From assembly GCF_039555335.1 (NCBI RefSeq), contig NC_092644.1, positions 50,729,281 through 50,793,280 of the forward strand: a DNA stretch of 64,000 bases. Reading direction: 5' to 3'. Within the stretch, counting starts at the first letter, position 1. Every line of letters begins with the position of its first letter. This document shows, piece after piece, positions 15,593 through 62,599 of the stretch. The DNA is from Amphiura filiformis. Taxonomy: Eukaryota; Echinodermata; Ophiuroidea; Amphilepidida; Amphiuridae. A model generated the notes under the pieces. It saw only the letters and a list, made by a program, of their open reading frames with translations. It was not told where the DNA came from and did not search any database. A program made the position numbers and the translations under genes.

Positions 15593-15727
15593 ATGCCTAT
15601 GATTCAGACACCTCAGTGGACAGAGTTCCTGTCTTGTCCTGTGTGCTATCATGAATTCAATGAGAACATTAGACGTCCCATCAGTCTGGGATGTGGCCAC
15701 ACAGTGTGCAAGACATGTCTCTCACAG
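15593..15727 (+). CDS. RC3H1: Roquin exon 1: RING finger, first part
   Basis: Residues 1-45. The start [18 protein letters not shown] is closely similar to the vertebrate Roquin N-terminus. RING ligands visible are C15, C18, C34, H36, C39 and C42; the final pair comes from exon 2. The exon ends in phase 0 at a CAG|GTGAGT donor. The RING confers ubiquitin E3 activity in the family. Confidence 0.95.
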
Positions 15728-18700: not shown

Positions 18701-21700
18701 CCTCATTTTAGAGAATTTTTTTACCCATGAAAAGAGTTTGGCAGTAACGAATTGCAATTTGTATAGATATGAAACGAATTTTGGGATTAATTCATGAAAT
18801 TTAGAAATAAATGATGCAAGCCATAGCACTTTATTCATAAGGCCTAATATTATAAGTTTTTAAACACTTGAGAAAGTTCTTGCAATTGCTGGTTCTTAGC
18901 CGTGTGATTTGACACGGAATAACAGCTCTTCACATGCTCTACGGTGGGAGACTTGTATGCGCTATTTGAACCAATCAAAGGTGCATAGCAAAGGGCCTCA
19001 TCGATTCTAAGCCCTAGGTAATTCCTTGTAAAATGTAGAATTTAATTTCATTAAAATTTGGTATACTTTATGATTAATATTTTTATCTGAATTAAAGTGT
19101 TTAAGAATGATGTCGCCCTTGTTATATGAGACAATAGATGCATGACAGGGGCTAAAAACAGTACCTTAATTCTCTAAATTGAAAAGTCATGGCATTTCAA
19201 AGTTGAAAACTGGTGGGTTTATTTCCTTCAACATATAAGACAAGTTTTCCAGGAAATGAAAAATAACTCTCCTTTTTAGTTTGTTACTATGGAAACAGAT
19301 TTATTTCCTTCCCTGTCTGTTTGTGTTCTGAGAAAAGTTTCACTTTGTTTTTCCCTTACTATATAAAATGTTCATCAAAAAGCCAGAATCCATCAAGGAA
19401 TTTTTATATTGTGCACAAAAAGGATCCTTATACTTGCAACAAAGGCCATTTCTTTTAAAAAACACTAAAACTAATTTATAAAAGTGGTCGATAGATGGCG
19501 AATTATGTTTTGTGTATTTTGTGTATTTTGATACATCATTCAGCACATGCAACTTCATTACCCCTAGTTATACCAATTCAGATAAAAAAAAGAGAGCATT
19601 TCAAAAGTAACTAATTGTGGTATATTCCTGTTCAGGCCATTTCCCACTGGCTTTTGTAATGGGCTTGTTACAGCATGACAGATTATCACTCAGTCACTGC
19701 GCTCATCAAAGGTTCTTTTTTTCTCATTTTTAGACTTAATTGCAAAGAACCACAAGACCTGTTGACATAAAAATGGAATAATATGTGACACGATCAAGGG
19801 AAATGAGTCGGATGTCGCTAATATTGATTTTGAGATATTGGCAAAGAAAGTGTTAAAATTGTTTTGTTTTATATTGTTTTTAGCAATTGATAAATTGACG
19901 TAACTTCACGAAGAAAAGTCGTATCAACATGGGATTTTCAGTTTCTGAAAGCTCTAAATGTCCTCCTTAGAAACATGTGTACAACTCATTTTCAAACAGG
20001 GCCGACATGCGACTCATTCCCCTTGATCATGTCACATATATAACTATAAGTGGTAATTTATGCAAGGGTTTTATTACCTGAATAGAGGTTTGGTCGCAAA
20101 CTACGCACAAATATAAACCTTTGTCATATATAATAACATTGATTTTTATAAAAACATGAATTTCACAAAAATGCCAACATGCACAACTTTAGGTATCTTT
20201 TGTTGGACTACTTATTATACTGAGTTTTGAAAAAGGACTTCGCTTGCTGTACTTTTAAGGGCAGCCAAGAAGGGAGTAAAACCACCAAAACTTTTTCTCA
20301 TGCATGGATTTAATTCAAGGATACCAGTCCCAGTGAAACATCACCGATTTCATCACTTAAATAGACAAGGTATTATAATTCTTTTACAAGAAATTTGGGG
20401 ATTATATACATTCAAGCTAGTTTCAGGATTTCTGATTAAAATGTTGTACAGTTTCCTCAACGCTGGGTAAACTTTCTATGCATACATTTGCCAAGTTTTG
20501 AAGATATACTGCAATAAAGAATTCATATGACTATTGTTTAAAAGTTCTTCTTCCTGAATCTGTTAATGATAATATTGCATTTATGTCATATTTGTGGCTG
20601 AAAACACAACTAACATGATTACCAGTAGTTCAGTTGGATATATTGGGAGGGGGTACACCTAATGAAATAGCAAGGACTCTTTCATGAATTGTATTTCCCT
20701 TCTTGTAAATAACTATCCAACAAATGTGAAAAGTCAAGTAAAAGATAACTTAATAATTAACTTTTAACTTATTATTACGTATTAGCTTTATTTATAATTT
20801 ACCTCCATCTAAAACATCATTTTGACCCCGTTTTACTGCGACAATTTTGTGAGAACAAATTCTTAATTTTTAGCCCATCATCATCATCGTCTACGCTTTC
20901 CGGCTATGTTGCCATTGCGCAGGCTACTACTGCTCTCCCAGCTATTCTGTCATTGGTCTGTGTAAGAGTTTGTTCATCTACTTCTTTCTGCATTTGCGCC
21001 ACCCACTGGTTTTGGGCGTCCGACAGGACGCTAATTTTTAGCCCACAAAGGTGAAATTGTGTGTTTACACTATTTGGGACATTATTTTGGGTGTTAGGGG
21101 GATTGAAATTTTCTTGGGGGTTGGTTGAGTTAGCAAACCCAATCAATGGAGTTTAACCCCCCCTGCAAAAAGACCACACTGGTGCTAGGAAATTGGTGTT
21201 CTTGTTGTCAAAGATTCCAAATTTGAAAATTGCATAAGATTTGGAGCATCAAAATTCTTGGAAACAGCCATTTTATGATCGGTGTGAGGGCGCTTTACTT
21301 TAAACATGCATACATTCTATCAACAGGAAATTTAGTGATGTAACAATGAAGATAATCATATGTAGCACCTGCTCATGTAATATTTATAGCAGGTATGTTA
21401 ACATTTATCACTATTATTCCACAGGTGTTGGTGGTGCTGGTAGCAGTAATTGCATCCTGAGTCGTCCCATGCAGCGCAAGCTGGTCACCCAAATCAACTG
21501 TCAACTTGTGGAGGAAGAAGAGGCGTTCAAGAGCCATGCGTGCAGCCAGATCTATTGGAGAAAGAACAGTGACGGAGTTGATGCTGCAACACCAGAACAC
21601 GCAGCAGTTGTCTGCTAACTTATGGGCTGCTGTAAGAGCAAGAGGTTGCCAGTTTCTAGGGCCTGGTGAGTAGGAATACATTACATGATCTAGTTCACTC

Positions 21701-24700
21701 AAGTTCATATTCTTGGGGTATTGTTATGGGGCTGTTAGTTGCCAAACAACCCGGGATGTTCGTTTCTTTACAGCTAGCAGGAGGAAAATGTCCCAACTTT
21801 GAAATAAACTTAAGATTGTGTTTCCACAGTTAAGTAACAAGTAATAGCAAACACCCCCCCCCCTGTCTCCCACACACACACCCCATATGTAATAAAGACT
21901 CAAACTAGGCAATGTTTGGGCCCCACTTGACTGTTGACAAATTGTATGACATTATGGAATAATGTTGTGGTAGATAATCTTGCATATGCAATGCATATGA
22001 TACTGTTGATGATTCAATACCAGCTGCAATAGCTGTTGTTAAGGGCTGGGGTATGAACGTTTGGACAGTATTTATTTTGGGACATTAGAACACATCAGAC
22101 ATATCGAATTGCATTCTGAATACGAAGAATGTCATTCTGAGATCAAATAATTTTGATTTTTTGAAATTCGCAATTTAATACACATTTTATGGCAAATCAT
22201 TAAAAATTGATATTTTTGATATTTAACAGTACTCAAGTAAACTTTATAAATCTGATGATTTATACTTAAAGTGTATGTAGGTGGGATGAAAAGCCGACGA
22301 TCAATTGAAAATTGGACCTTTTCAGATTGAATATATGGATTTTTTTCCAAAACACCAAAAAAATTAGGTCTTTTTGGGAAAAAATCCATATCTTCAATAT
22401 GAAAGGTCAAAATTTTCAATTGACGTCGGCTTTTTCTCCTGCTACATACACTTTAAGAATAAAGTGTAAGAATAAGGGAGAGCGTGGCGCAATGGTTAGG
22501 GTACTTGCCTTTAGTGCATGAGGTCCCGGGTTCGATTTCAGTGTGGCGATTTGCTGGGATATTGACTTGGAAAAAAAAAATCTGAAATTAATTGGCAACT
22601 TCTGTAGATTAAATTCAGACTTCCGCTCTCCCCCTGGTTCATTTAGAATTGGGCAAACGAATTATGAAAGTACTCCGTCCTTCGGAGGGGACGTTAACCC
22701 GTCGGTCCCGTGTACAGAGAGCCATACCTGTACATGTATCTCGCAGCCAGTTTCGAAAAGAGTAGGGTGTTAACCCCTGACTGTTCCCAACCCGCCTCGG
22801 TGTTCAAATGGACCCCAATGGAAATAAGCTTCACTAGAGGCTTTCTTGGGTTATCCAGGGTTGTCCAAACCCGAACAAATCAAATCAAATCAAATATATC
22901 ATTAGATTGATATAATTTACTTCGAAGACTGTTATATATCAAAAATTTGAAAAATATCAAATTTTTATAATTTGTCATAAAATTTGTATTATATCTTGAT
23001 TTTCAAAAAATGAAAATTATTTGATATCAGAAAGACATGCTTCGTATTCAGAATGCAATTCGATAGGTCTGAGGTGCTCTCATGTCCCACAAATAATACT
23101 GTTGAAACGCAATAAACGCTCATTCTAGATCCCTTAAGGAAAATAATCAAATTGCCAATAACAAACTTTTGAACTTTATGCTTTGCTCAAACAGCCATGC
23201 AGGAAGAGACACTAAAACTGGTGCTTCTCGCATTGGAGGATGGCGCTGCTCTGTCACGCAAAGTTTTGGTGATGTTTGTGGTACAGAAACTGGAGCAGCA
23301 GTTTCCCCAGGCATCCAAGACCAGTGTGGGTCATGTTGTTCAGTTGCTATACAGAGCATCTTGTTTTAAAGTAACCAAGAGAGAGGAAGAAAGTTCTCTG
23401 ATGCAGCTCAAGGAAGAGGTAAGTTCAAGTTGTCATTTAAAGTAAACTTTTTAATACCTCTGTGCTGCGTGCCGAGCGTTAACACAGAAATGATAAACCA
23501 TCACGCTGATTGGCTGATCAACGGTCATGACCAGTGGATAAAATATAGTACCAGCCCAAGGTTTTAAGCAAGAATATGTGATAACTTGGTTGTAACCTTA
23601 TGTAATCTTAAATCCTATGATACAACATAAAGTCAGTCTCCAACTTATATCACAAACTTTCTCTTTGCAGTTTCGTAATTACGAAGCCCTGAGACGTGAA
23701 CACGATGCCCAGATAGTACAGATAGCAATGGAAGGTGGTTTGCGCATCTCACCAGAGCAGTGGTCATCTCTACTGTATGGAGATCTCAACCACAAGTCTC
23801 ACATGCAGTCTATTATTGACAAGGTAAATTTGCTGCAGAAGTAATTGAACTACTGTAAAACCTCGCCTGCAAGCATATATAGTGTTTTTGATGAAAGCTA
23901 GATTAATATGATACATGCATATATATGCCAATATAATAGATTGGTCTTACAATAATACTTATTTGTATATGCTTAGATCTGTAATTTATTTGCTCAAATT
24001 CCATAATGGCACCTGGATTAATTTATCTTTCATCAGAAGCTCTCTATATGCTTGTAGACGAGGTTTTACGGTATTCCATGTGAAATCTACTATACCCCTG
24101 TGGAAGATTTAAGAAAAGTGTATCACAGAGGGAGTTTGCTTATCAAATTGAATTGTTTGTGGTTAGTTATTTTGAAACCCATACTCCCTCTGTATATGGC
24201 TTTACCTTTCCAAATAGAATAGGCTAATAAGGCAGTTGAATTACAGGTCTTTAAGTGCACATATTTTGATCATTGTGTTATAGTATTTGAGCAAACACTT
24301 TTGTCCATTTACAGTTTCAGTAAAGTGTTACCTATTTTGTTTGTTTATTTGTTTTTATTTTTATTAACAATAGCCAAGCTTTATGCAGAGCTGCCAACTC
24401 TTCTTGATCCTGCAGAAGACTTCCTCATTTGCCGACAATCTTCTGTCTTTTGCAAAACATATTAAATCTTCTGCATTTGCAGCCATCTGGCTAAATCTTC
24501 TGCATTTGCAGCCATCTGGCTAAAAAATCAAAACAAAATCAATTATACGCCACTGTCATGTCCTTTTGCAAAAAAAGAAAAGGTTGAGTAACCTTGGAAA
24601 GGCATTTTAAGGGTCTCAAAAAGCTAACATCCAGGAGCTTTCGGGCCGTTGCCCTTGGCACGTAAGGGCATCTTGAGCTTTTTTACACTTCACAGAAATC

Positions 24701-27700
24701 TTCTGCATTTACATATTCCAATGTTGGCAGCTCTGCTTTATGTCATTTTAGATATTTCTTGTGATTATTGTACAACATAATTGAATTCAGTTCAAGTAAT
24801 ATTAAAGTAGACACTGATTGAATCTGGACTTTGTTATGTTTAATCCAGCAGCTTCAGACACCGGCATCATTTACCTCCAGCATACAAGAGCTAACCATCG
24901 CTTTACAGAGATCTGGTGACCCAGCCAATCTTGGTAAACTGAGAGACCATCTCAAACTATTGGCCAATATCAATCCTATTCCAGGTAAACTGTCCTGACA
25001 TTTATCTCAGATAAGAATTAACTATGCTAACATGGCAGGGTCCGACTTCTCTACTTTAGTTCTATGGTTATTTCCAATCACCTCAAACTATTGGTAAATA
25101 TCAACCCTGCTTATATGTGTAAGCCTATAGATAATAAGCTTTTGTAATTGTTTTGTTATTATGTGTGTTTGTTTATGCACGGCCCTAAGAAAGAACAACT
25201 TTTGTTGAATTGGGCTCCAGGTTGAAATAAAAAGCCTAATACATTCATTCATTCATTCATTCATATTTTATTTCCATAAAAATCAAAGACATTACACAAA
25301 AAAATATATATAAACACGGTACATATGGAGGAAAAGGCTGGAAGACCAAAAAGGTCGGAAAGTTAGCCTTTCCCTGAAATCAAATGAAATTAACAAAATA
25401 AAATAAACAGGTTGTATCAAAATGATTGGTACCCATCCATTTTGATGTTCATTGAAAAACCCAGCTGCCTCCTCCAAGTGCAATATTGGATACGTTTGTA
25501 ATGTCCAGAATGTATAGTTTATGACTTATTATACAATTAATCTACAACTTATGTGGATCTTATGTTGAATTTTGATGTGCCAGACTCATCCATTATCAAT
25601 GAAAGCTGATGGGTACCAATCATTTTGATACAGCTTTTGTACTATGTTGTATTCCAGTCAGTGGTCATGGCAGTTATCTGAGCCATAATTAACTACTGAC
25701 TTTTAAATTATTATTTAAAGATTTTCTGTACAAAATATTTTGTCTAACTGCATCTCCATATGATCCAATATAAATATGTGATGATTTGTCATAGGCCTAA
25801 TACCATAAAAACTTGATAGTTAGCACATGTGCTTACTATCCAGCACTTTTAAAAACATGCAAAAATGAAGAGCATCACCTAAGTGAAAAGGGTTTTGAGC
25901 AAATCATTGATACACATAGTTAGATACGAACAAGTAAACCTGCAAATTTGTGTCTTAACCCCATTAACTCAGTTGGTGAAGCGCTGGACTTTGGTACAAT
26001 TTGCATGTTTTTAAAAGCGCTTGATAGTAAGCACATATGCTACAAGTTTTTACGGTATATCATGTCTATCATGTAAGTAACCTGCTCTGAAAGTGTCAAT
26101 TCCTTATCCTTGGTGTACTAGGCCATATTTGATAGTCTTATCTTGTGATAAGTACAAACATAGTTTTATTTTGATTTTTGATGTCAGATCTTGTCTTTAT
26201 CAGATTGATTTCACATTTTGCCATTTGTCTGCTTCAATAGGACTTCTATACTTTGATCAGCTCATAATCGGCGGGAATTGTTAAGCTTTTACCACTACGC
26301 CGAAAAGTAGACCCACTTTAAGAGTGATTTAGTTGATCCGTTTGATCTATATTGTGTGTGTTAAATAAAGTAGATAAAGTATAAGACTTCAAGTAATAAT
26401 TTGTGATGCTTCTGGCGAGATGTCACAAGGCAATTCTCAAAATAAAATAAATTGATATTAATCCGCGATGTTATAAGGCTTGTCGTTTACGAGCTGATCA
26501 AACTATATACTCTATATGTTCCAAAAATGCACAAACCTGAATTTGAGGATGTTTAACTGTTCTGGTTCAGTAACTTGCTGTAGAAGCTATTAATGCTATG
26601 GTTTGTCACACACACATTGTTTTTATACTGTTTTGTTCAAAGAACAGGAACTGAAATATGATCTTTTGTGACGTAAATGCGATCTTTTGTGATGCATTTC
26701 CATGGAAATCCAACAGGGAAGAACGAAAATTGTTTTTCTTAGTAAGAATTTTCATCACATATATCATTTTTAATATAAATTTCATTTATAATTCTTTTCA
26801 ACCTGAATTTTATGCATTATATTTATAATGTTGGCATGTATTACTACTAATATTTTGTGTTTTTTGTGAAAGACTAACAAATTTGACATAAATCGTCAGG
26901 CTTTAATTGGTATATTTTATTCATGTGTTACAGAACTAGAACTACCAGCCTGGGAGGATGTTGAATACGCTATGATTTCAACCAAGATAGTAGTCCATGG
27001 CTTAGTTGAGTTTATCTCCCATCACAGCCACACTAAAAAGATACTTGAACAACAGGTAGGTTAACCAAGAAAATTTAAAAACTTCCAACAGAAACGGAAG
27101 GCAAATGAATATATTTTTATCAGCTATTATATTCGGTAACCAACTGTCACCATCCTCGGGCAGTAAGGCTACCAATAGGTAGGCTGGTAATCTGCTACTT
27201 ACAGGGGTATACAGTCACTTGCCAGCAAAAATAGATTTCAATTTGAATATCAAGCAAATTCAAGTAGGTTTATCCACTTGTGTATCAGTTTCAACTGAAA
27301 TTCAACACAGGTATTTACGTTTTTTATTTTGATGTCTATACACAAACAGCCTCATCAGTAGGACTCCAGTGATGAACCGGTTTAAATGTATGTTCTTTTG
27401 TCAACCTTATATGACCTTTTGTCGACGTTTGATGTCCTTTTGCTGACCCTTAATCACGGTTGAGCACTGGAACATGTTTTCTGATTTCAATGACTTCTTG
27501 CTCAGGACAAGGTATTTTTAAGGTGTTTTCAGGGTCAAAAGCTTTACTCCAAATATACTCCAGCGCTCAACTGTCATCAAGGACTTGAGTGCCCTTCATT
27601 ATATAATTTTGATTATCTGGCTCTTCTTCATCACAGAGAGTGTTTGCTTGCAAATGTAGTCTGCTCTTGGGATGCCTAGAGCACTTGCAGTACTGTTTTC

Positions 27701-30700
27701 ATCTGCCTTTGATCTCTGTCCCTTCAGTCAGAACTCTCCCATTCTCACCCTAAAATAAGGGTGAATGTGAATGGTTAACATAAATTATGATCTTTATTTT
27801 GTATTTCCTTCCTTGTAGCAAACCCAAAACATCAAATACAAGACAAGTATGTGCCGTGACATCACACAAAAAGGAGGTTGCCCTCGTGGCAATAACTGCA
27901 CCTTTGCTCACTGTGAAGATGAACTGGACAAGTAAGTTGGCAATGGGCTTTGTTAGACAGTGGTGAGGGGGATGGGGAGAGACTAAAATAGGCTGATTTG
28001 CATGATTTTGTAGATGAAAGGGGTGGTCTCACTCTTCCCACCCCTGCCTTAAAAATGTTGTTCAAATGCAAACTTGAAACCAGACACGAGTCATAGCTAC
28101 ACTGTAATAAAGCCACGATTTCTCTGTGTTACAAAATTTAAAATCTGTGTTACAAATTGGACGATTTCCGTGATTTTCCGTTTTCCACTATAAAGCACTG
28201 AAAAGTTAAAACAAACATGTTTTAAAAGTGTATTTTGATTTACCTTTTAGTGTAGTATGGCCAGAATCTTGCATTGTTGACCTAGAGTTAATGCTAGAAT
28301 GGATTGTTTATTGGTTGATTACTGCTATATAATCACTTTTCTTTGTTTTATTTTGCACAACACAAAACAACATTTTACACAGTTTTTCACTATTTTGTGG
28401 CATTTTCAAATTTCTGTGAGCAAACCCCGAATTCCGTGAATTTTTCTGTTCTTCCGTATCGCCGAGAAATCGTGGCTTTACACTATAGGAACCTTCACAA
28501 CCCATATAATGAGTAATGCCCCTCAAATCAGTATTATTGTACAATATATTATATTTAAGTAAATTAGACCATAATTCAACATTTTGTGTAGCCAGTTGCT
28601 TCAAAAATGAAATGTATATGTGATTAAGTAGTCAAAACCAATGCTTCACAAGTCAAGTACATATTTTGTCTTTCTGTAATCAAGCCACAGTTGTTTCTTT
28701 CTTTCACTCAAGGTACCGTTCCAAAAGTAGACGTTTGCTTTCTACCATCAACCGTCAGAATAGCAACCAGAGTGTGCGGTCTACCATGTCACAGTCATCT
28801 ATGATTGGTGGGAGAATGTTGTCACGTGGCATGTCGAGTCCCCCATTGGATAAATACATAAATACAGCTGCAATAGTAGACCCAGAGGCAGATGATGGAC
28901 TCATCAATGAGAGGAAGATGACAAGGTTGGTATTAAGGCCCAACTAATAATAGGATTGGATGTTGGATCGACCCGATATATGTGTTATTGGTAAACTATT
29001 GGATCAGCAGAAATGTGTTAACCCCCTGAGCACTACCTGCCGATCTAGTATTACCTCTGATTGGTCAATTACATGATATCTTCACTTCAATCACCAATCA
29101 GAATGGAGCTTTGCAAATAATTCATCCCAATTTTTTTGCGTGGTGAAATTATTCTAACAATGTTGCTGATTGGGCCAATTGATAATGAAAACTTCTTTTT
29201 GGCCAATCGGCAAGTAGTTCTCAAGGGGTTAATGCTTGCCAAGAATGCTTACCAATATCATGATGAGTCTACTCCATCCTTACAGGTTGCATTGTTTTGA
29301 TAGGGGTTTGATATAGACATTCATCATTATGTCTATTCCATCCTCACCTGAAAATGTGTGCAAAATCAGTGAACTTCCCTGTTGACTTCCCTTTCAATCA
29401 GTGTCAAATTTATAAGAAATTATTGACCATTTTAATTTCAGGGATGCTGTTTTGGGGTACAGTCCACATCATGGCGTAATCTCTCCAGAGCCTGATGAAC
29501 GACCTGGTAAATATCCACCACACGCTATGGGAGACATGCAAGTACCATATAGACCACCTGACCATTATGGTAAGTTTGAAGTCCTCATAGATCCTCATAG
29601 AGTAATAGCTACTCCCCATTCTAGAAAAATACTGAGATTAAAAAAATATTATTGTTTTGCCAAAATAAACAGCTAAACTCATTTAGTTAATTCTAATTGG
29701 CAATAAAAGTTCAATTTCACTGTTTGGCCAAATTTATGAACCAAAAATGTGCATTTTAGGGTGTTTTTCACATGCTGTGATAATCAAGTCTAAAGACTTG
29801 TTATAAGTCTAATATCAATTTATTCATTCTGATTTTTGGAAAAGACATGTTTCATTCTTATAACTAATCGTTAACTAAAGTAACACAAAAAAGTGAAAAT
29901 TAGAGCAAAATTGCCAAAAATGTTAGAAAATATTTTTTTTTCAGATTTGTCAGATTTTGGTGAAATTTTAGGGTAATTTTAACCTCCAGAAAAAAAATGT
30001 GCAGCCGACCAACCTACTTGAAAGGTTTGTCTGCCTGTAGAACAGGGTGTGTTTTTTGGTCACCTAATGTACAATTTTACAATATGTAATGGTTAAATTT
30101 TTCAAACCTGATTCATTTTGGCATATTTGTAATTTTTACATTTCCTAACTTACACTTAAATGGGTTGGTCATGTCAACAGAGCAATTTGGACATCATTTT
30201 TATTTTCAGACATGAAGTTCCCCATAGAACTCCACTTAAACAGCTAACATAAGACGATGGGTATTTCTTTCACTTGACCTTGTTATTGCGGCTTAAAATG
30301 GACAAAAATCATCCCTGACAGTTATAACAGCAAAATTAAAATATGCTGGAATTCATATATAATGGCTTTAAATACTAACTATTCACCTTATGCCCTATTT
30401 GTATTTAATAGATCAATATGGTAGGGATCGTCATGGTTACCCAACTGGAATGCCACCTACTCCCAGCACACCGCCACCACATCCCTCGTCTACCACTCAG
30501 TATGGACGCATGCTGCATGGTGTCCCAAAAGACCAGTATATAACCAAACCACCTGTATACAGACACCAAGATAGTGGAGACGATTACATGCATCCACCAC
30601 ATGTTATCAACAGAGAGTCTCATCCTTCACCCCTCCACTATGAAGGGGTCAGGAGGGTGCCGGATCATCCAGGGCCAATGCTCAGATACCCATCTCCCCT

Positions 30701-33700
30701 GCACTCTGATCATGACACAGATCGTTATCATCATGGACACTTGTTGAGCGACAAGTCGGATGGATTTCAGGAGGATCTGTCGGCTTTCTCAAGACATGAC
30801 AACGGGTGGACAAAGAGTGAAGAGTTGGAATATCCGTTACAAGATTTAGAGAGGAATGAAAAGGTCTGTTGAAATGTTCTTGAGATGAAAATGTTAAAAT
30901 TGTGTCTAGGTTTGAAGTGGTAATTAAAGAATAAATAATAGTAAATTTTGTTTTTACTTTTTACTATCCTCTATCCTATGTATAGGAGTTGTGAGTAGAT
31001 TTTTTTTATATTTAGCAAAAATTAAGTTACCAGCATGAAAACTCCCCTTATTCTAAAATGAACAAAACTTGCTTACAACTTCAGTTGTGCTTACTACGAT
31101 CATGTACATGTATTACGCAGTAGGCCTATGCTTGCATCATGCTACATGCTACAAGCCTCAACAAGCTTGTTACATGTACATGATGACATGGTCTATCACC
31201 TCATAGACAACACCCAGGAACAAATCAAATTTTAGTGCATAAACAAAACAAGCTAACCGCACCCACTGACTAAGGATGGCAATTAACATGTCCTTTTCCT
31301 TTTTCTGTTTAGGCACACGATAAAACAAAGATGAGGCCATTTCTAAATAGCATAGAAACACCAGCTAACATCCCAACCAACCTGGTAGAGCTACAACAAC
31401 GCCAGAAAGAAATTGTTGCCAAACTCAACGATTACCAAGTGAAATCCCCTTGGGAGCATTCTGCTCTTACTACAGTAGTATCATCCAACCAAGGAAGGCC
31501 TAAAAGCTCTGTTGTAATTGACGAGGCAAGGAGACGCCCCGCCCATACAACGTCAAGGCACATCAAGCTACGATGCAACCCACGGATATAAGTACTTTGA
31601 TCCCTGGACAAGCACGGCACCTTTTGTGTTCTTTAAGCCAGTCAAAGAACTTAATACAAAGTATACAATGACAGTAAGCAAGTCGCAAATCAAACATGTT
31701 TCTGCCAATGAAACTGAACAGATGGCACTAGAGAAACCACACCAAGGTAAAGAACATCCAGAATTCACTAATATGGACTTAGCAGAGCTGAAGAAAACCT
31801 TGGAGAAAGTTAAGTTGCAAGATCACCACACTGGTTGCACACATTTTGAGCGTAGCCAAGAGCTTAACCAAGAACTGAAGAGGCGAGAGCACTGTGGAAG
31901 ACCAGACTTGCCTTGCACCGATCCGTCTCATCATGTTGTCTCCCCATTCATTCAGGAAGAGTACATACCTCAGATATGGGGTCCACCTGTCTCAAGAGCA
32001 TCACGTACATCATTCAAAATTACACCCCCTGTTAAAGTTAATGCAGGACCAACTGGTCCCGGGGGTGGTGCACCATGCACGCCAGTGAGTTTTAATTGGA
32101 ATAATCAGATGGTGCCAGTAGCTGGCCAGTCACCAGTAGCAGATAAAAATTTGGACATGAACATGTTCCATAGAGACACTATCAACAGAGAAGATATCCC
32201 CAGAGACAATGTCCCCAGAGGCGATATCCCCAGAGACACTGTCCCCAGGGACGAACCTAGAGACGCTGTCACCAGAGACGCTATCCACAGAGACGCTATC
32301 CACAAAGACGCTATCCACAGAGAAAGTATCCACAGGGAGGCAGTGATTGTGACTTCAGTGGAGCAGAGGTAGGTAGCTTAAAAAATTGGTAAATGAATTT
32401 GCCTAGTGAAGACTGTACAATAATTGCATCCACTACAAGAGATAGGAGTTGGCAGGGTTGGGATTATGGTTGTGTGTGGTGTTGCTCCATTGTCAAGTAT
32501 CATGTGTGGTAAATGGCCTTGAAATTCACTAAATCTTATACAATCTGCATAAAATTACTTGTTATCAATTCAGTGTCAATATTGCTACTTTATGGAAGGA
32601 ATAATTCAGACATTAAAGCAGGGCTTGTCAATTATAATTACTGCTGGGTCATGGAGGGCCAACTACATGTCAAAGATCTGTGTTTGAGGGCTAAATCACT
32701 GACCCGTCTTTGAAATCAGAGACGTCCGTGAATTACGAGTGCCTCCGAACTGATATCTTCCACAATTGGAATGAGTATTTCAAATGGAAGTTACCAAATT
32801 GTCTATTCTACTTGAAACCCATACTCCCTCTGTGGCAAACTTTAGCTACATATTCCACAAGGAGAGTGTGGCTTTCAAATGGAATACCGTAAAACCCTGT
32901 CTACAAGCATATAGTGTGCTTCTGATGAAAGCTACATTAATCCAGTCGCCATTATGGAGTTTGAGCAAATTAATTACGGATCCAAGCATATACAAACAAG
33001 TATTATTTTAAGACCGATCTATTATATTGGTATATTAACGCTTGCTTCGAATTAATTAAGCTTTTATAAAAAACACTATATATGCTTGTAGACGGGGTTT
33101 TACGGTAGTCCAATTACTATGATACAGCCTTTAGTGCATCCGAAGTTTCGTAAAGTTTAGTGAAATGGACCCCTGGTGATTGATAAAGATTTGCCTTCCT
33201 GGAAATGAATGGATCAGTGTACGTTTTATAAGTAGTTAAGATGATTAAATGTGGTTAAAATGAAAGAAATGAAGAGGGAAAAACAATTGGGTGGGACGTA
33301 GTGAATATCTTTTTTTTACTTTTGCTTTATCTTTGCATTCCATGTTTCATATTTCTGTTTCATGTTTCATATCTCTCTTGTTTCATATTTCTGCAGAAAT
33401 GAATCTGGAAATCCAGTTAAGACTCAACTAGAGTTGGAACATGAGTTGGCTCAAGTCAAAACAAAGATTGCCCAACAAAAGACTGCCAAGGTAAGATTTT
33501 TTCCACAAAAAAAAATGGTTTTGACATTTGACCAAAAATTCCATTTCGAAACGGCTGCAAGTGTAGACTATGAAATACAAGCCCTGATTTGTAAGCTAGC
33601 ACATAAGTGATTGGTGCATGGGTATGTAACAAAGGCATATTAACCAATCAGAACATTGCATACAAAAGTGCTAGGTACCCTGCAAGAATCATCAATGGCT

Positions 33701-36700
33701 GCCATTCATGCATCGAGCAGTGAATGCCAGCAAAGACAATAGTTTCATGATCAGTTTGAGCATGGAATTTTTAAATATGGCTTGGACTTTGTCAACTCAA
33801 AGTTCCAAAACAGATCACAAAGGAAGCAATCCTTCAAACCAGAGTATTCCATGAAATGGAAATTCATACAATCATCTCAGAAAGGAGAAAATCATGCACG
33901 ATGTGCAATTTGTAGTGTGGATTTTCAGCATTGCTCACATGTACAAGTTGCAGTGGATCGTATAACATTGTACATAAGCTGGCCAACGCTTGATATTTTT
34001 GGAAAATGTGTTTTTTTATTGAAAAATGTGACTTTTGGGATTTCAGAATACAGTTATTTTGTGATCTCAAAGGTTGGCAGGTCTGCCTTCTCTAATTCTA
34101 AGAATAAGAGAGGTCTAGTAATAACTACATCTTTGTGAGAGCCATTTCAATTTGTAACCTCCTTTATGGAAGCATTTGGTCATAGATGAAAGAGACATAA
34201 ATCACAAGTAGTTACACAACGGGTAAAGTCCCTTTGCTTTGATGGAAACTGAGTCTTGCATATTTACGAGAACCTATTGTTTTATCGACTGTGTCCACAA
34301 ATTTTGCTCATAGTTGGATGCCTAAGAGATGCATTTAAACAAATGATTTCAAGACACTGCGCTTTGATAAATATGCGGTCACAGAGTGGGCATAGCATTT
34401 TCCAGTTCACACTCCATGGAACTATTGGCCGTCATTAACAGATGATGCTGGACTTTGCCATTTGGTGCACCATCTATTTCTTACTACAGTCTAAGAAAAA
34501 TTGTTGGAACAGTTTAAAAGATCTTAATGGATATGTCCCCCTTCTACCCCGTACTATGTTATAATGCATAACTTGCTCATCTTCACCATATCTTCTCCCA
34601 ACATTGATTGGTGGGGATAGCGGAGGGCGTCTATGGAAGATGAACATTGAGGCAACACTATTATAATTCTTGGTTTCCAGAAGAACATGGGAATTAGAGT
34701 AAGTGTTCAAACACATTTTTCTAAGATTATAGCCTATGTATCTGGTTCTTAAAAGAAACATGAATACATGGTTTTTACTGTACTATTTTTTGCAGACGGC
34801 TAATGATGCATTTTTGATACAGCGTGAGAGCAGGGCGTTGGGAGAGACACGTCTATCTATGCCCCCACCGGACATAACACACCTGCAGGTAGGTCATTAG
34901 TTATTTAATTTTGTGGAATTTCTGTTAAGTGTATAAAAACAAATAAAAACAGTCGGCTCTCAACACGCGATATTCAAAATTCCTGCGCTGAAATTGTCTA
35001 AGTGCAATGACGTAATGGTTATTTGTGCTCAATTATCGTCAGCCTTCATTGTATTACTGGGACGTCATTGCGCTCAACAATTTCGGCGCCCGTGAATATT
35101 GAATATCTCGTTTTGAGAGACAGATGTTTTTATTTGTTTTTATGGTCATTATGAGTTTGTTTTAAATAAAACCATGTGATTCGTGCTTGATAATTATTTT
35201 TCTTACACATAAGGCATACTGTTGTGATTGCCGGAGACCACTTTTACAGTACACTTGAAAAAGATTTGCAGATGTGTTTGTAGGATTTGGTGCATGACAA
35301 TCCTGCATAAATAGGTTACTAACAATTGTAGCAAACAAGAAGACTCACAATAGTTGTTACTAGATGTAATGTGATTTAATGGAAAGAATGTACTTTTTGT
35401 GTGTTGTTATTTTCATGCCAAAATTCCCAAAAGATAAAACTCTTAAAGGGATTCTCCGGCAATCATAACATTATGCTTTATATGTTAGAAAAATAATTAT
35501 CAAGCATGAATCACATTGTTTTATTTAAAACGAACTCATATTGATAAACATGTAAAAGTCCAATTATGCCATTTCATTGATATCTTTTTCTGATAATTTC
35601 ATTTAGGTTCAGAAAGATATGGAAATAGCCAAGAGACTACAAAGTGAAGAGTTCAAGGGTGCCAGGCCGCTGTCACCTGACTCACCTAACACCTTCACCA
35701 TGGATCAAGACTTTCCACCTCTGGACAGGGACATTTTGGTAAGTTTTAGAATCAAAAGAATTACGGCAGATGTGTGTCCAATCTATGATGAATCAGAGAG
35801 TTGGTAAACTAGTTGGGATAAAAAGTTTGTAAAACCATTTAAGATATCTCAAATGGGGTTCATACTGGCATGTATAGAATTGCTGGCGTTAAAAAGTGTA
35901 ATAATTCAACTTAAACCGTGAAGTAGGTAAAACTCCAGTGGATTTGCTGTAACAAATGAGTATTGGAAGTTGGTACAAAATGGAAACAGTTTTGGAGACT
36001 TGGTAAATTGGTAAGTGAAGAAACATTGAGCAGGCTGACTGACACTCGTAATAAAAACTGCAGGTGAGGCGACAAAAAAAACCCACTGTTCTATGGACAG
36101 GGACAAGTAAGGTCATTTAGTCAGGATTTTGTTATTTAAAGTTAATAACTTAAAAATCACAGATGAACGTTGGAAAAATGTGACCAAAAAATCATGCAGC
36201 TAAAATGGTGTTTTTTTAATATTTCTATTCGAACACAAACCTTACTTACCCTCCTTCGTCTCATCATTCATCTCTATCACAGGAGAATCAAGCTAGAGAC
36301 AAGAGACTATTAATACATGAGCAGCAAGCTAGGGACATAAGGCTATCACAGGAGCAGCAAGCTAGAGAGAAGAGACTATTACAGGAGCAGCAAGCTAGGG
36401 ACAAGAAGTTAGCAGAACAAGTCCATCGGTATGAGCAGGAAAGAGCCCAACGTTTTGAGCAGGAAAAAGCCATGAGAATGAGATCATACAACCAGAGACG
36501 TCCACGCTATGATGATGACATGTTGCATCAAGGTCATGCGCAGCAATATCAGCAGCAATGGCAGCAGCAACAGCAAAGTCATCAGCAGCAGCAGCAAAGT
36601 CATCAGCAACGTTATCAGGAGCAACAGATACGACAACAACAAGAGCAGGAAGACCAGATGCTGGCACGACAGGTGGCACGGGATGAGGCTAGAGCCATAG

Positions 36701-36768
36701 GAGTTAGGCTGCCACCAGAAAACAAAGGATATAGAGGCGGTGCTTCAGCATATCCATGGCCAAAATAA
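15593..36768 (+). CDS. RC3H1: Roquin (RC3H) gene, 16 coding exons
   Basis: This is the orthologue of vertebrate Roquin-1/2, a cytoplasmic RING E3 ligase and RNA-binding protein that binds stem-loop decay elements in 3'UTRs and recruits deadenylation machinery. Coding join: 15593-15727, 17481-17691, 21425-21665, 23195-23418, 23671-23823, 24852-24984, 26934-27055, 27819-27931, 28713-28925, 29442-29569, 30412-30863, 31313-32368, 33397-33490, 34796-34888, 35607-35738, 36283-36768. All introns are GT-AG and all phases match. The sum is 3986 nt, or 3984 (1327 residues plus stop) after skipping one surplus base in exons 3 and 12. Domain order: RING 15-54, HEPN/ROQ about 85-400, CCCH finger 418-437, Pro/His-rich linker, coiled coil 1061-1091, MIU-like motifs near 1126-1137 and 1290-1301. 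Human RC3H1 and RC3H2 are about 1130 and 1190 residues. The two frameshifts mean the assembled sequence does not encode the full protein as written. Confidence 0.93.
15757..15880. mobile_element. Small foldback MITE in Roquin intron 1
   Basis: CAGGAAAAACCTCCTATGT and its complement ACATAGGAGGTTTTTCCTG bound the stretch. A second inner pair (GGCCC-TGAATATGTTTAAA and TTTAAACATGTTCAGGGGCC) extends the hairpin. It starts about 30 bp after the RING-exon donor. Confidence 0.75.
16198..16385. mobile_element. Foldback MITE in Roquin intron 1
   Basis: CTCAAGTTACGGGTAACGTC and the stretch to ATTCAAAT are inverted as ATTTAAAT to TTACTTTCAACTTGAG, about 50 bp per arm with mismatches. Target duplication not resolved. 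Confidence 0.65.
16469..16992. mobile_element. MITE in Roquin intron 1
   Basis: Left end GTAGGCACCGGAGTTTTTGC and right end GCGCGAAACTCTGGTGCCTAC are imperfect inverted repeats. The interior holds several GCGCATTTT/CAGCGC words. Target duplication ambiguous. Confidence 0.7.
17481..17691 (+). CDS. RC3H1: Roquin exon 2: RING end and HEPN start
   Basis: Residues 46-115 plus one base. It supplies the last RING pair C51 and D54 (sequence QCPFDQ); an Asp ligand at this place is characteristic of Roquin. It then runs through LLQLVGAE into the start of the HEPN segment ([19 protein letters not shown]). Acceptor TTTCTGTAG, donor G|GTAAGG, phase 1. The open frame continues to 17927 only as intron read-through. 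Confidence 0.95.
18212..18269 (+). pseudogene. Partial duplicate of Roquin exon 2 in intron 2
   Basis: This 58-bp stretch encodes [19 protein letters not shown] and is a diverged copy of the last 58 bp of exon 2. It is preceded by a usable-looking acceptor (CATATCAG) and keeps the donor (G|GTAAGG). Six of 19 codons differ, three of them silently. Its phases are 0 in and 1 out, while exon 2 ends in phase 1, so adding it after exon 2 would break the frame. It could be a dead exon fragment or a rarely used poison exon. Confidence 0.8.
19784..20036. mobile_element. TA-flanked MITE (TGTGACACGATCAAGGG family), copy 1
   Basis: The ends TGTGACACGATCAAGGG and CCTTGATCATGTCACA are inverted repeats flanked by TA (19782-19783, 20037-20038), as in Tc1/mariner-derived MITEs. 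A second copy, in opposite orientation, lies at 37853-38085. Confidence 0.82.
21425..21665 (+). CDS. RC3H1: Roquin exon 3: ROQ domain start, with a +1 frameshift
   Basis: Residues 116-195. The first part reads [19 protein letters not shown] and continues to QLVEEE in one frame. The rest reads [17 protein letters not shown] and on to CQFLGP in the next frame. Both halves match Roquin strongly, so one surplus base lies within about 21511-21523 (GAGGAAGAAGAGGCG). Read literally the frame ends at a stop at 21619-21621. Acceptor TTCCACAG, donor G|GTGAGT, phases 1 and 1 once the base is skipped. An assembly error in the purine-rich run is the simplest explanation. Confidence 0.92.
22043..23133. mobile_element. 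TTAA-flanked foldback MITE, copy 1, split by a SINE
   Basis: The ends are GGGCTGGGGTATGAACG on the left and GATCCC on the right, each next to TTAA (22039-22042, 23134-23137), the piggyBac-type target. The arms are long imperfect inverted repeats covering most of the element. A related 660-bp copy lies at 45270-45929. This copy is about 430 bp longer because a tRNA-SINE entered at its centre. Confidence 0.88.
22474..22896 (+). mobile_element. tRNA-derived SINE
   Basis: A pol III A box (TGGCGCAATGG, 22485-22495) and B box (GGTTCGATTT, about 22529-22538) stand at tRNA spacing near the start. The element ends in AAATC repeats. Comparison with the 45270 MITE copy, which runs straight from CTTTAAGAATA to TATCATTAG, shows this block is an insertion. 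Its body includes a CCTCCGTCC/GGACGTTAACCCGTCGG segment. Confidence 0.85.
23195..23418 (+). CDS. RC3H1: Roquin exon 4: ROQ RNA-binding core
   Basis: Residues 196-270. This is the most conserved exon and reads without gaps against the mammalian ROQ domain. M197 corresponds to mouse Met199, the residue mutated to Arg in the sanroque allele. R217/K218, K237 and R258 correspond to human R219/K220, K239 and R260, which contact the stem-loop RNA. Acceptor CAAACAG, donor GAG|GTAAGT, phase 0. Confidence 0.96.
23671..23823 (+). CDS. RC3H1: Roquin exon 5: ROQ winged-helix end
   Basis: Residues 271-321. It carries [20 protein letters not shown] and QWSSLLYGD, nearly identical to vertebrate Roquin, ending SIIDK. 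Acceptor CTCTTTGCAG, donor AAG|GTAAAT; 153 bp, phase 0 at both ends. Confidence 0.96.
23851..24073. mobile_element. MITE, TACYGTAAAACC family, copy 1 (intron 5)
   Basis: The ends TACTGTAAAACCTCGCCTGC and the complement of TACCGTAAAACCTCGTCTAC are inverted repeats that include a terminal TA. It starts 28 bp after the exon 5 donor. A second copy lies at 32885-33107 in intron 12. Confidence 0.82.
24386..24735. mobile_element. hAT-type MITE in Roquin intron 5
   Basis: The ends are CAGAGCTGCCAAC and GTTGGCAGCTCTG. CTTTATG is duplicated at 24379-24385 and 24736-24742 (8 bp if the boundary G is counted once). The interior repeats AATCTTCTGCATTTGCAGCC. Confidence 0.85.
24852..24984 (+). CDS. RC3H1: Roquin exon 6: C-terminal HEPN segment
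   Basis: Residues 322-365. It reads LQTPASF followed by [17 protein letters not shown] and LLANINPIP, as in the family. The acceptor is a tandem CAGCAG: using 24848 instead of 24851 adds one Gln. The vertebrate sequence (IIDKLQTPASF) favours 24852. The exon ends in phase 1 at a G|GTAAAC donor. Confidence 0.94.
25180..25500. mobile_element. Two LINE-like tails meeting at an ATTC microsatellite
   Basis: TTGGGCTCCAGGTTGAAATA followed by AAAGCCT and ATTC repeats (25243-25263) looks like the 3' end of a non-LTR element on the plus strand. The following TTTATTTCCATAAAAATC segment resembles a similar tail on the minus strand. No coding part is left. Confidence 0.4.
26934..27055 (+). CDS. RC3H1: Roquin exon 7: end of HEPN region
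   Basis: Residues 366-406. The segment [20 protein letters not shown] aligns with the vertebrate WEQLENGLVAVRTVVHGLVD and closes the folded N-terminal half. Acceptor TGTTACAG, donor CAG|GTAGGT; it enters in phase 1 and leaves in phase 0. Confidence 0.92.
27819..27931 (+). CDS. RC3H1: Roquin exon 8: CCCH zinc finger
   Basis: Residues 407-443 plus two bases. The ligands C418, C427, C433 and H437 form a C-x8-C-x5-C-x3-H finger ([22 protein letters not shown]), preceded by the usual YKT basic lead-in. The finger aids recognition of AU-rich RNA in this family. Acceptor CCTTGTAG, donor AA|GTAAGT. Confidence 0.96.
28108..28480. mobile_element. MITE in Roquin intron 8
   Basis: TAAAGCCACGATTTCTC at the left and GAGAAATCGTGGCTTTA at the right are exact complements. 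The interior holds TTCCGTGATTTTCCG-like words related to the element at 50825-51163. Target duplication not resolved. Confidence 0.72.
28713..28925 (+). CDS. RC3H1: Roquin exon 9: basic Ser-rich linker
   Basis: Residues 444-515. It starts [11 protein letters not shown] after the finger, like the vertebrate KFRKMNKRL, and becomes a Ser/Met-rich linker ending INERKMTR. Acceptor ACTCAAG, donor AG|GTTGGT (weak); phase 2 at both ends. The donor is chosen because it rejoins exon 10 in frame. Confidence 0.85.
29442..29569 (+). CDS. RC3H1: Roquin exon 10: proline-rich linker
   Basis: Residues 515-557 ([17 protein letters not shown], ending RPPDHYG). It is a low-complexity Pro/His/Tyr-rich segment with no strong family match beyond composition. 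Acceptor AATTTCAG, donor G|GTAAGT; enters in phase 2, leaves in phase 1. Confidence 0.82.
30412..30863 (+). CDS. RC3H1: Roquin exon 11: Pro/His/Tyr-rich region
   Basis: Residues 558-708. Disordered sequence rich in Pro, His, Tyr and Asp, comparable in position and composition to the vertebrate Roquin region that contacts deadenylase factors. No catalytic motif is visible. Acceptor TTTAATAG, donor AAG|GTCTGT; enters in phase 1, leaves in phase 0. Confidence 0.83.
31313..32368 (+). CDS. RC3H1: Roquin exon 12: long linker, with a +1 frameshift and a 15-bp repeat
   Basis: Residues 709-1060. The first frame gives [20 protein letters not shown], matching the vertebrate LDELHRRRKEIMAQLEERKV. From about 31518 the next frame carries the protein (YKYFDPWTS, like YSQYSPWSCDT) to the donor. 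The switch must lie between the stop of frame 2 at 31515-31517 and the stop of frame 1 at 31592-31594; the C run at 31537-31540 is a good candidate. The end is a degenerate five-residue repeat (RDAIH/RDTVP type) at about 32172-32340. Acceptor TCTGTTTAG, donor AG|GTAGGT. Confidence 0.88.
32885..33107. mobile_element. MITE, TACYGTAAAACC family, copy 2 (intron 12)
   Basis: Ends TACCGTAAAACCCTGTCTAC and GTAGACGGGGTTTTACGGTA are inverted repeats. Both ends match the copy at 23851-24073; the interiors have partly diverged. Confidence 0.82.
33397..33490 (+). CDS. RC3H1: Roquin exon 13: coiled coil
   Basis: Residues 1060-1091. [19 protein letters not shown] aligns with the vertebrate Roquin coiled coil LRLELQQLNHQISQQTQL. 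Acceptor TTTCTGCAG, donor AAG|GTAAGA; phase 2 in, phase 0 out. Confidence 0.88.
33491..34795 (+). other. RC3H1: Roquin intron 13, nothing recognised
   Basis: Open frames of up to 118 codons (33782-34138) occur but lack family similarity and splice context. No repeat boundary is clear. Confidence 0.4.
34796..34888 (+). CDS. RC3H1: Roquin exon 14
   Basis: Residues 1092-1122 ([20 protein letters not shown], then [10 protein letters not shown]). It weakly resembles the segment after the coiled coil in vertebrates. 93 bp, phase 0 at both ends, with clean TTTTTTGCAG acceptor and CAG|GTAGGT donor. The exon could be skipped without a frame change. Confidence 0.78.
34933..35143. mobile_element. Foldback MITE in Roquin intron 14
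   Basis: ATAAAAACAAATAAAAACA then CGGCTCTCAA and GATATTCAA on the left are inverted on the right (TTGAATATCTCGTTTTGAGA, then TTTTTATTTGTTTTTAT). Arms are about 50 bp. Confidence 0.78.
35149..35541. mobile_element. Second foldback MITE in Roquin intron 14
   Basis: An arm of about 90 bp beginning ATGAGTTTGTTTTAAATAAA is inverted at 35455-35541 with about 85-90% identity. It lies immediately after the 34933-35143 element and ends about 65 bp before exon 15. Confidence 0.78.
35607..35738 (+). CDS. RC3H1: Roquin exon 15: MIU-like motif 1
   Basis: Residues 1123-1166. [12 protein letters not shown] at 1126-1137 fits the ubiquitin-binding MIU pattern (acidic, hydrophobic-Ala-x-x-Leu, acidic), as in CCDC50-type proteins. 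An acidic/hydrophobic stretch follows ([12 protein letters not shown]). I recall no such motif in vertebrate Roquins. Acceptor CATTTAG, donor TTG|GTAAGT; 132 bp, phase 0. Confidence 0.78.
36283..36768 (+). CDS. RC3H1: Roquin exon 16: charged repeats, polyQ, MIU-like motif 2, stop
   Basis: Residues 1167-1327. It begins with four ~11-residue repeats of the form [11 protein letters not shown], probably one long helix. A Gln/His-rich tract follows, then [12 protein letters not shown] (1290-1301), a second MIU-like motif, and the end AYPWPK before TAA at 36766. Acceptor CTATCACAG. Together with exon 15 this resembles the C-terminal architecture of CCDC50 more than vertebrate Roquin; the similarity is by motif, not alignment. 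Confidence 0.8.
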   Translation, partial: ENQARDKRLLIHEQQARDIRLSQEQQAREKRLLQEQQARDKKLAEQVHRYEQERAQRFEQEKAMRMRSYNQRRPRYDDDMLHQGHAQQYQQQWQQQQQSHQQQQQSHQQRYQEQQIRQQQEQEDQMLARQVARDEARAIGVRLPPENKGYRGGASAYPWPK

Positions 36769-36776
36769 ATTGATAC

Positions 36777-37086
36777 TAGGGCTTAACCGATAATGTATTG
36801 ATATCATATCAGCCTGATATTATCGGTATCGGATCGGATCGGATATTGGTAAAAAAAACCTATTCTGAAGTGCTAGGATCATTCACAGTTAATTTGAAAA
36901 CAAATTTGGATAAAAATTACGAATAAATTACAGTTTGTTATCCTTAATATGCAAACCATTAACTTGTGTTTGCCTCTTCATCTTTTTTTATTTATTTTAT
37001 TTTTTACCGATATCGGATCGGATACCAGCCGATATTATAAAATCCATATCAGATCGGTAGACAAATGCCATTTCGGCTGAGCCCTA
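36777..37086. mobile_element. hAT-type MITE directly after the Roquin stop codon
   Basis: Ends TAGGGCTTAACCGATA and TCGGCTGAGCCCTA are inverted repeats, with ATATCGGATCGGAT-rich arms. Exact 8-bp duplications ATTGATAC lie at 36769-36776 and 37087-37094. The left duplication begins on the base after TAA. Confidence 0.9.
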
Positions 37087-43680: not shown

Positions 43681-44977
43681 AGAGGGCCTGACATTTGGAG
43701 TTTAACTTGAGCAAATTATTTTGGAGGGCCTGGCATTTGCAGGGGCGTAACCAGACCTGACCTTCCGGGGGGGCAAGATTGAAAAATTTCCCAATTCTTG
43801 ACCAAAAGTCGCGAGCGTCTTGCCGCGGAGCGTTAAACGGGTGGGTTCCAGGGGCCCCCCTTATAGGGGCCCTGGTGGGGTCCAGGGGCAAAGCCCGGCG
43901 GGGGTCAAGGGGGCGGAGTCCCCCTGAAGCTCCTGGTTTTTGGCATATTAGAAGCTAAAAATCAGTGTTTCAGAGTACAAATTTCAAATTCCTCTTTCTT
44001 TCCCTTTTCTCTTCTCCTTCCTTTTCTCTTCTCCTTCCCTTTTTTCCCTCTTTTTTCTTTTCTTCTTTCCCTTTCTCTTCTTCCCTCTTTTCCCTTTTTT
44101 CTCTTCTCCTTCCCCTTTTTTTTTCTTTTTTTTTTTCTCCTTCTTTTCCCCTTCCCAATTTTTTTTTTTTTGCTCTTCTTCCCAGTTTTTTGTGTCCGGG
44201 GCAGCTGCCCTGCCACCCCACTGGTTACGCCACTGGGCATTTGGATGGGTTCAACTTGAGCAAATTATTTTGGAGGGCATGGCATTTGGAGGGGTTTAAC
44301 TTGAGCAAATTATTTTGGAGGGCATGGCATTTGGAGGGATTTAACTTGAGCAAATTATTTTGGAGGGCCTAACATTTGGATGGGTTTAACTTGAGCAAAT
44401 TATTTTGGAGGGCATGGCATTTGGAGGGGTTTAACTTGAGCAAATTATTTTGGAGGTCATGGCATTTGGATGGGTTTAACTTGAGCAAATTTTTTTGGAG
44501 GGCATGGCATTTGGAGGGGTTTAACTTGAGCAAATTATTTTGGAGGGCCTGACATTTGGAGGAGTTTAACTTGAGCAAATTATTTTGGAGGGCATGGCAT
44601 TTGGATGGGTTTAACTTGAGCAAATTATTTTGGAGGGCATGGCATTTGGAGGGGTTTAACTTGAGCAAATTATTATGGAGGGCATGGCATTTGGAGGGGT
44701 TCAACTTGAGCAAATTATTTTGGAGGGCCTGACATTTGGATGGGTTTAACTTGAGCAAATTATTTTGGAGGGCATGGCATTTGGATGGGTTTAACTTGAG
44801 CAAATTATTTTGGAGGGCATGGCATTTGGATGGGTTTAACTTGAGCAAATTATTTTGGAGGGCATGGCATTTGGAGGGGTTTAACTTGAGCAAATTATTT
44901 TGGAGGGCATGGCATTTGGAGGGGTTTAACTTGAGCAAATTATTTTGGAGGGCATGGCATTTGGAGGGGTTTGGTGA
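43681..44977. repeat. 45-bp minisatellite, 17 units, interrupted by a MITE
   Basis: The unit contains AACTTGAGCAAATTATTTTG then GAGGGCATGGCATTTGGAGG. One unit precedes the MITE at 43740-44235 and 16 follow, spaced exactly 45 bp from 44251 to 44926. Because 45 is divisible by three, long open frames (LKLNPSKCHALQNN repeats on the minus strand) arise; I do not treat them as genes. Copy B has a single unit at this place. Confidence 0.93.
43740..44235. mobile_element. hAT-type MITE inside the minisatellite
   Basis: Ends CAGGGGCGTAACCAG and CTGGTTACGCCACTG are inverted repeats with one mismatch. GGCATTTG is duplicated at 43732-43739 and 44236-44243. The interior has GGGGGGCAAGATTGAAAAAT, GC-rich GGGGCCC words and a 200-bp pyrimidine tract (43985-44175) of TTCTTTCCC type. 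Confidence 0.88.
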
Positions 44978-45269
44978 ATTGATCGGAAGTCACAAATCCA
45001 AGGAATAATGACCCCACATACTCTCATGGAGATTTTGTCTCGACAAAAATAGTGTGGTCAACTAAATTAAACAACTTATGAAATATGTTAGGACTCTGCC
45101 CCCAATAAGATAATAAATTAAGTCCACCAAATAATAGGTTTTATAAAATTGTCCACTTCTCTTGGGGAGAGTACAACATAAGGTACATTATAGATCTATG
45201 CTCTCTCCCTGTCTCCACTAATAGTGTAAATAGTGAATATATGTATCAATTATTACTAAGCATGCTTAA

Positions 45270-62487: not shown

Positions 62488-62599
62488 CTATGCAAAGAAA
62501 AAAATAAAAAACAAAGAAATAATATCATAAATATTTTTGGTGCAAAAAAAATGTTTTGAAATGTCGAATAAGATGAACTAAATTGAAACTGAAATTATA

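Follow-up and report, generated by a model that had tools for sequence, protein, structure and literature searches.

A candidate ubiquitin-reading tail with MIU-like motifs in a Roquin orthologue from Amphiura filiformis

MIUs have been described as single helices whose central alanine occupies the Ile44 patch of ubiquitin (PMC2699339, PMC5426901, PMC4942677). Several proteins that carry such motifs are relevant to the locus reported here. RNF168, a RING E3 ligase, carries two MIUs, and replacing the central alanine of its MIU with glycine reduces the amount of ubiquitinated protein that is held (PMC2699339). Both RNF168 and RNF169 take part in the response to DNA damage, where histones are the proteins that they act on or read. 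MINDY-1 is a deubiquitinase, with an activity opposite to that of a RING E3. It binds K48 chains through MIUs in tandem, and its cleavage of long chains depends on these MIUs; altering Leu-Ala in the MIU likewise lowers the amount of ubiquitinated protein held (PMC4942677). Finally, Rabex-5 (RABGEF1) is a Rab5 exchange factor that has a ubiquitin-binding zinc finger in addition to its MIU (PMC2699339).

Roquin silences messenger RNAs and also has a domain that attaches ubiquitin. Vertebrate Roquin-1 and Roquin-2 and the amphioxus Roquin combine RING, ROQ, and CCCH domains with proline-rich and Q/N-rich parts and mostly a C-terminal coiled coil; the three domains and the proline-rich and Q/N-rich parts are also seen at our locus. 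A 42-residue C-terminal motif is common to the human, zebrafish, and amphioxus proteins (PMC11172303). The mouse protein ubiquitinates itself through its own RING, and RING activity governs its localization or entry into stress granules (PMC4716841).

The window analyzed here is a stretch of 64,000 nucleotides from Amphiura filiformis (NC_092644.1) whose intron-exon structure is eukaryotic. On its + strand, we rebuilt a Roquin gene of sixteen exons that spans positions 15593 to 36768. The pattern GT(A/G) fits 13 of the 15 placed splice donors, and the donors of exon 9 (GTTGGT) and exon 11 (GTCTGT) were set by eye. An N-terminal RING finger is present over exons 1 and 2 (Pfam zf-RING_5, E = 9.9e-10), with seven Cys/His positions seen (C15, C18, C34, H36, C39, and C42 in exon 1 and C51 in exon 2). 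The ROQ RNA-binding domain lies within HEPN and is matched by the Pfam models ROQ and ROQ_II (PF21206, E = 3.7e-47; PF18386, E = 4e-34). Furthermore, exons 3b to 8 match the solved Roquin-1 structure 4TXA in the PDB (E = 1e-149), and the CCCH zinc finger is matched both by Pfam zf-CCCH_4 (18044; E = 4.5e-6) and by Roquin-1 chain 8RHS in the PDB (E = 2.1e-11). Because the RING, ROQ, ROQ_II, and CCCH features that define Roquin at its N-terminus are found together with the 4TXA match, the gene is a true Roquin (RC3H) orthologue, and the first-pass annotation of this DNA was correct to call it one. The coordinates of its parts are collected in Table 1.

Table 1. Exons and motifs of the Amphiura filiformis Roquin gene (positions within the window)
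Feature	Position	Strand	Content and evidence
Exon 1	15593-15727	+	Start codon and first part of RING finger; zf-RING_5
Exon 2	17481-17691	+	End of RING and region after it; GT/AG sites, Pfam RING
Exon 3	21425-21665	+	Start of HEPN/ROQ; frame break near 21511-21521
Exons 4-6	23195-23418, 23671-23823, 24852-24984	+	ROQ and region after it; PF21206, PF18386, 4TXA
Exons 7-8	26934-27055, 27819-27931	+	End of ROQ/HEPN region, CCCH zinc finger; zf-CCCH_4, 8RHS
Exons 9-12	28713-32368	+	Low-complexity, proline-rich middle; frame break near 31530-31545 in exon 12
Exon 13	33397-33490	+	Putative coiled-coil segment, 18 residues noted; phase 2 in, phase 0 out
Exon 14	34796-34888	+	Second half of the putative exon 13 coiled-coil segment, 16 residues noted
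Exon 15	35607-35738	+	MIU-like helix 1, acidic/proline linker
MIU-like motif 1 (strong)	35616-35651	+	Exon 15, 12 residues
Exon 16	36283-36768	+	EQQARD helical repeats, Gln-rich tract, C-terminus, stop
MIU-like motif 2 (weak)	36400-36435	+	Exon 16, end of repeat array, 12 residues
MIU-like motif 3 (weak to moderate)	36652-36687	+	Exon 16, 12 residues; strict pattern match
AATAAA, possible polyadenylation signal	36922-36927	+	

The tail of the protein comprises exons 13 to 16, which join in phase to give 268 residues. Exon 15 is bordered by the acceptor tttcatttag/GTTCAG and the donor ATTTTG/gtaagt, and exon 16 runs from the acceptor tctatcacag/GAGAAT to a TAA ending at 36768; the joins into both exons are phase 0 and fall at consensus splice sites. 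We also scored coding potential with codon usage trained on exons 1 to 8, 11, and 12 (or parts of them). Exons 15 and 16 reached 0.279 and 0.34 per codon, and none of 2000 noncoding windows, each of 44 codons, scored above the highest value of 0.168. These windows came from the introns and from sequence downstream of the gene, regions that had also trained the background. Exons 13 (0.18) and 14 (0.313) are both shorter than the control windows with which their scores are compared. Since both joins are phase 0 and codon use matches the rest of the gene, it is unlikely that exons 15 and 16 belong to another gene.

No Pfam family matched the tail up to E = 10, a search that returned two chance matches only and whose HMMER filters can drop weak ones. 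CCDC50 carries MIU-like motifs among coiled coils, and Pfam includes a CCDC50 model. The kinship with CCDC50 that had been proposed for this tail found no support, in that CCDC50 was not among the Pfam matches up to the same threshold, with the same caveat about filtering. In the PDB, exon 15 (searched as 45 residues, including one intron codon) matched nothing, and exon 16 gave two chance matches (E = 0.11 and 2.6). Therefore, shorter queries built from the motifs were needed. No relative was confirmed among 57 and 4 candidate stretches from two collections of bacterial, archaeal, and viral sequences, and because of what these collections contain, this result has no bearing on conservation in animals.

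We also compared the tail with that of human Roquin-1, using a provisional comparator sequence that makes the results a lead only. Exons 13 and 14 align with what we take to be its coiled coil (score 57, reached by 0 of 1000 shuffles, the best of which scored 55). The rest of this human comparator gave no significant match, with 154 of 1000 shuffles as good for exons 15 and 16 and 831 of 1000 for exon 15, in line with an earlier remark that vertebrate Roquins end differently. That remark also agrees with the divergence of Roquin C-termini described in PMC5303829.

To describe the motifs, we used the pattern [DE]xx(LIVMF)Axx(LIVMF)xxx[DE]. The tail, with its 268 residues, contains three matches, and the other five protein pieces (1066 residues) contain none. 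When the tail was shuffled 20000 times, at least one match appeared in 299 shuffles, at least two in 1, and three in none; 5000 shuffles of all 1334 residues gave at least one match in 293 cases, two in 14, and three in 1. A stricter pattern that ends in two acidic residues holds for motifs 1 and 3, and it was matched at least once in 26 of the 20000 tail shuffles and twice in none. Each of the three motifs has a hydrophobic residue, a central alanine, a second hydrophobic residue three positions later, and acidic flanks, and they sit in stretches free of proline and glycine that are 23, 79, and 55 residues long, respectively. Motifs 1 and 3 are the two peptides that the first-pass annotation had singled out, and both do carry the MIU-type pattern in the last two exons. 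The third pattern match, motif 2, was absent from that annotation.

Six MIUs taken from PDB alignments served as comparators: those of Rabex-5, myosin VI, RNF168, and RNF169 and two of MINDY-1. The Rabex-5 sequence was read from PDB 2FID/2C7M, and the myosin VI chain is one that we take to contain a MIU. Around the central alanine of the exon 15 motif, 9 of 15 residues are identical to the Rabex-5 MIU, giving a score of 43 that was reached by 0 of 3000 tail shuffles (best shuffle, 39). Rabex-5 itself is not known to have an RNA-binding domain. The MIUs of RNF168 and RNF169 show no special closeness to the Roquin-tail motifs, and when the tail was scored against them, 333 and 735 of 3000 shuffles, respectively, did equally well.

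The three motifs differ in how far they exceed the bare pattern. The mean score of motif 1 against the known MIUs is 26.5, which falls within the range of these MIUs among themselves (22.0 to 27.6), and only 33 of 10000 random 12-mers constrained to the pattern score as well. Motifs 2 and 3 have mean scores of 19.3 and 20.8, both below the known-MIU range, and these were equalled by 1056 and 631 of 10000 constrained random 12-mers, respectively. Likewise, their best single scores were equalled by 1675 and 2531 of 10000. The resemblance to MIUs that had been claimed for both named peptides is thus strong for the one in exon 15, whereas the one in exon 16 goes barely beyond its pattern.

A profile built from the three motifs was then compared with 177635 PDB sequences. 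Rabex-5 entries ranked first and second (E = 3.5e-4 and 7.3e-4) and myosin VI third (0.64), and the remaining two of the five matches, histone H3.Y (1.0) and enoyl-CoA hydratase (4.7), are unrelated. The exon 15 motif alone gave three matches, all with weak E values. The best of these was MINDY-1 chain 5MN9_C (0.12), which has 7 of 12 residues identical to the motif and whose MIU is presumably the second of the two in MINDY-1; the other two were Rabex-5 (0.41 and 0.42). Seven matches were obtained with a profile of motifs 1 and 3, namely Rabex-5 twice (1.6e-3 and 1.8e-3), MINDY-1 (0.053), and four unrelated entries. The same three motifs matched no family when searched against Pfam.

Because the motifs had been picked by pattern, we also ran control profiles. 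A profile in which the core was kept and the flanks were shuffled did not retrieve Rabex-5 but still matched ZFAND2B (0.33), which we take to be a ubiquitin binder, and myosin VI (0.53). Its top matches were two unrelated entries named 4D2, with E values of 0.0076 and 0.013. Therefore, the PDB result is due in part to the preselection of the pattern, and E values near 1e-3 offer no large margin. A further control used triples of random motifs that kept the core residues and matched the tail in composition. Summed over five known MIUs, the score of the profile of the three observed motifs was 81.6 bits, which none of 400 such triples reached (mean, 26.0), and its best single score was reached by 1 of 400. 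For the individual MIUs, the observed score was reached by 0 of 400 triples for Rabex-5, 1 for myosin VI, 3 for RNF169, 16 for MINDY-1, and 30 for RNF168. On the strength of the constrained-random and profile controls, the predicted MIU likeness of the tail exceeds the bare pattern, and it is owed mostly to exon 15.

These comparisons suggest a reading of the locus that we favor, if tentatively. This Roquin orthologue may end in a C-terminal effector tail that reads ubiquitin through a MIU-type helix encoded by exon 15, with two more degenerate copies encoded by exon 16. On this reading, the tail would be a new combination of known parts, most likely serving as a ubiquitin-reading effector. 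A RING E3 with a ubiquitin-binding tail had been put forward as a lineage-specific architecture. RNF168 already provides a working precedent for the Roquin tail as a RING E3 with MIUs (PMC2699339), so the combination would be new only for Roquin.

The tail might instead recruit CCR4-NOT, as in other Roquins, with short amphipathic helices that bind either CAF40 or the NOT module and with the MIU likeness of exon 15 being incidental or secondary. The C-termini of human Roquin1, human Roquin2, and fly Roquin all recruit CCR4-NOT even though their sequences are not conserved, and the CAF40-binding motif of the fly protein is a single amphipathic helix detected in Drosophila species only (PMC5303829). 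We looked for the spacing of this helix, defined from the contact residues given in that paper as hydrophobic residues at positions 0, 5, 8, 12, 15, and 16. No fly-type CAF40-binding motif was found in the tail, where at most 4 of the 6 positions agree anywhere, and three other protein pieces reach 5 of 6. Since CAF40-type motifs are not conserved between lineages, the explanation survives this result, and another CCR4-NOT motif unlike the fly spacing may be compatible with it. Nevertheless, CCR4-NOT recruitment leaves the Rabex-5 match unexplained, and we consider it rather unlikely, although it is the foremost alternative. Recruitment of CCR4-NOT and reading of ubiquitin could also coexist in one tail.

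The repeats of exon 16 bear on a different explanation. The EQQARD repeats and the Gln-rich tract described in the first-pass annotation are real, and the former are encoded by a 33-bp tandem array at 36274-36406 that yields four 11-residue units. Across all pairs of the four units (nine codons each; the pairs are not independent), differences at codon positions 1, 2, and 3 number 6, 6, and 17, and of the 21 codon pairs that differ, 9 are synonymous and 12 non-synonymous. The excess at third positions fits a coding array under mild constraint. The array begins nine bases inside intron 15 and straddles its 3' splice site, and the acceptor CTATCACAG/GAG recurs at the junction of copies 2 and 3, at 36343 inside exon 16. 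The splice site itself therefore falls within the repeat, and splicing to an alternative acceptor in frame is possible. Motif 2, which forms the final unit of the array and is the sole unit with alanine at the central place, may have become MIU-like by drift.

From such repeats, one could argue that exons 15 and 16 form a coiled coil or a single alpha helix, charged and rich in Gln, that serves self-association and that the MIU pattern arose by chance from helical repeats rich in Asp, Leu, Ala, and Glu. The origin of motif 2 within the array fits this account, as does the finding that neither exon 16 motif is clearly superior to pattern-constrained random peptides, and Q/N-rich and coiled-coil parts are general in Roquins (PMC11172303). 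The exon 15 motif, on the other hand, lies outside the array, and its match to MIUs goes beyond composition both in the Rabex-5 shuffles and in the constrained controls described above. We therefore regard a purely structural tail as quite unlikely.

Two frame breaks interrupt the rebuilt gene. The first lies in the HEPN/ROQ region of exon 3, in a GAA/GAG run where the frame changes after LVEE, and it is likely an assembly error, the other possibility being a broken gene. The second lies in exon 12 at the run CGCCCCGCCC. Both sit in short low-complexity runs and resemble assembly errors. In addition, exons 10 and 11 are out of phase at the splice sites found (29601-30425), which reflects a missing exon or site, or a third break. 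Given the two breaks and this junction, the full-length product is putative. A Roquin copy that is decaying or duplicated, with a tail that yields no working protein, would account for these three defects, but this account is very unlikely, given that RING, ROQ, and CCCH are well kept, that 13 of the 15 placed donors fit GT(A/G), and that exons 13 to 16 are open and coding by score.

Other repeated and mobile elements were seen in the window. Exon 12 also contains a 15/30-bp tandem array (32172-32335) encoding repeats of the RDxIP/RDAIH type. A minisatellite of about 45 bp units occupies 44372-45005 and reads on the - strand as LNPSKCHALQNNLLK repeats. A Helitron-type transposon lies at 56528-59713 on the - strand; its 56528-58060 frame encodes a PIF1 helicase (PF05970, E = 2.4e-63), and Helitron_like_N (PF14214, E = 4.5e-34) is found in 58880-59713. 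A further long frame is found nearby at 61317-62594.

If the tail does act as a ubiquitin reader, a mechanism can be proposed. The exon 15 helix would use its central alanine (the A in EIAKRL) to bind the Ile44 patch of ubiquitin and make the main contact, and the two exon 16 helices, carried on a long charged helix beside the Gln-rich tract, would add avidity. We infer that the ubiquitin so read may be on Roquin itself or on its partners. The tail could thereby tether the enzyme to ubiquitinated proteins, chiefly to ubiquitin attached by the enzyme's own RING to the enzyme itself or to its neighbors, and this hold might promote self-association and retention in RNA granules. Counting against the proposal, self-ubiquitination of mouse Roquin is independent of the residues after 484 (PMC4716841).

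Among the literature matches listed for the Roquin C-terminus and ubiquitin binding (titles and abstract openings), there was no report of a ubiquitin-binding Roquin tail, and none of those listed for Roquin with MIU or UIM (the best 10 of 68) names Roquin. Similarly, Roquin was not named in the best 15 of 6956 matches listed for the protein in echinoderms, sea urchins, molluscs, amphioxus, or hemichordates.

A broader extension of the proposal is more doubtful. In this lineage, Roquin would be an RNA-binding E3 with a tandem MIU tail that links mRNA repression to both the writing and the reading of ubiquitin. By ubiquitinating itself, Roquin would become clustered on its targets and gathered into granules, something that the vertebrate proteins manage without or have lost.

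In our view of the field, the role of the Roquin RING is less settled than the roles of the protein in RNA binding and CCR4-NOT recruitment. If binding of ubiquitin should fail, the tail would be another divergent Roquin effector tail like those described in PMC5303829. If the proposal is true, the ubiquitin reader built into this Roquin would offer a natural and easily mutated handle on the role of the RING, and a single Ala-to-Gly change should uncouple ubiquitin reading from ubiquitin writing.
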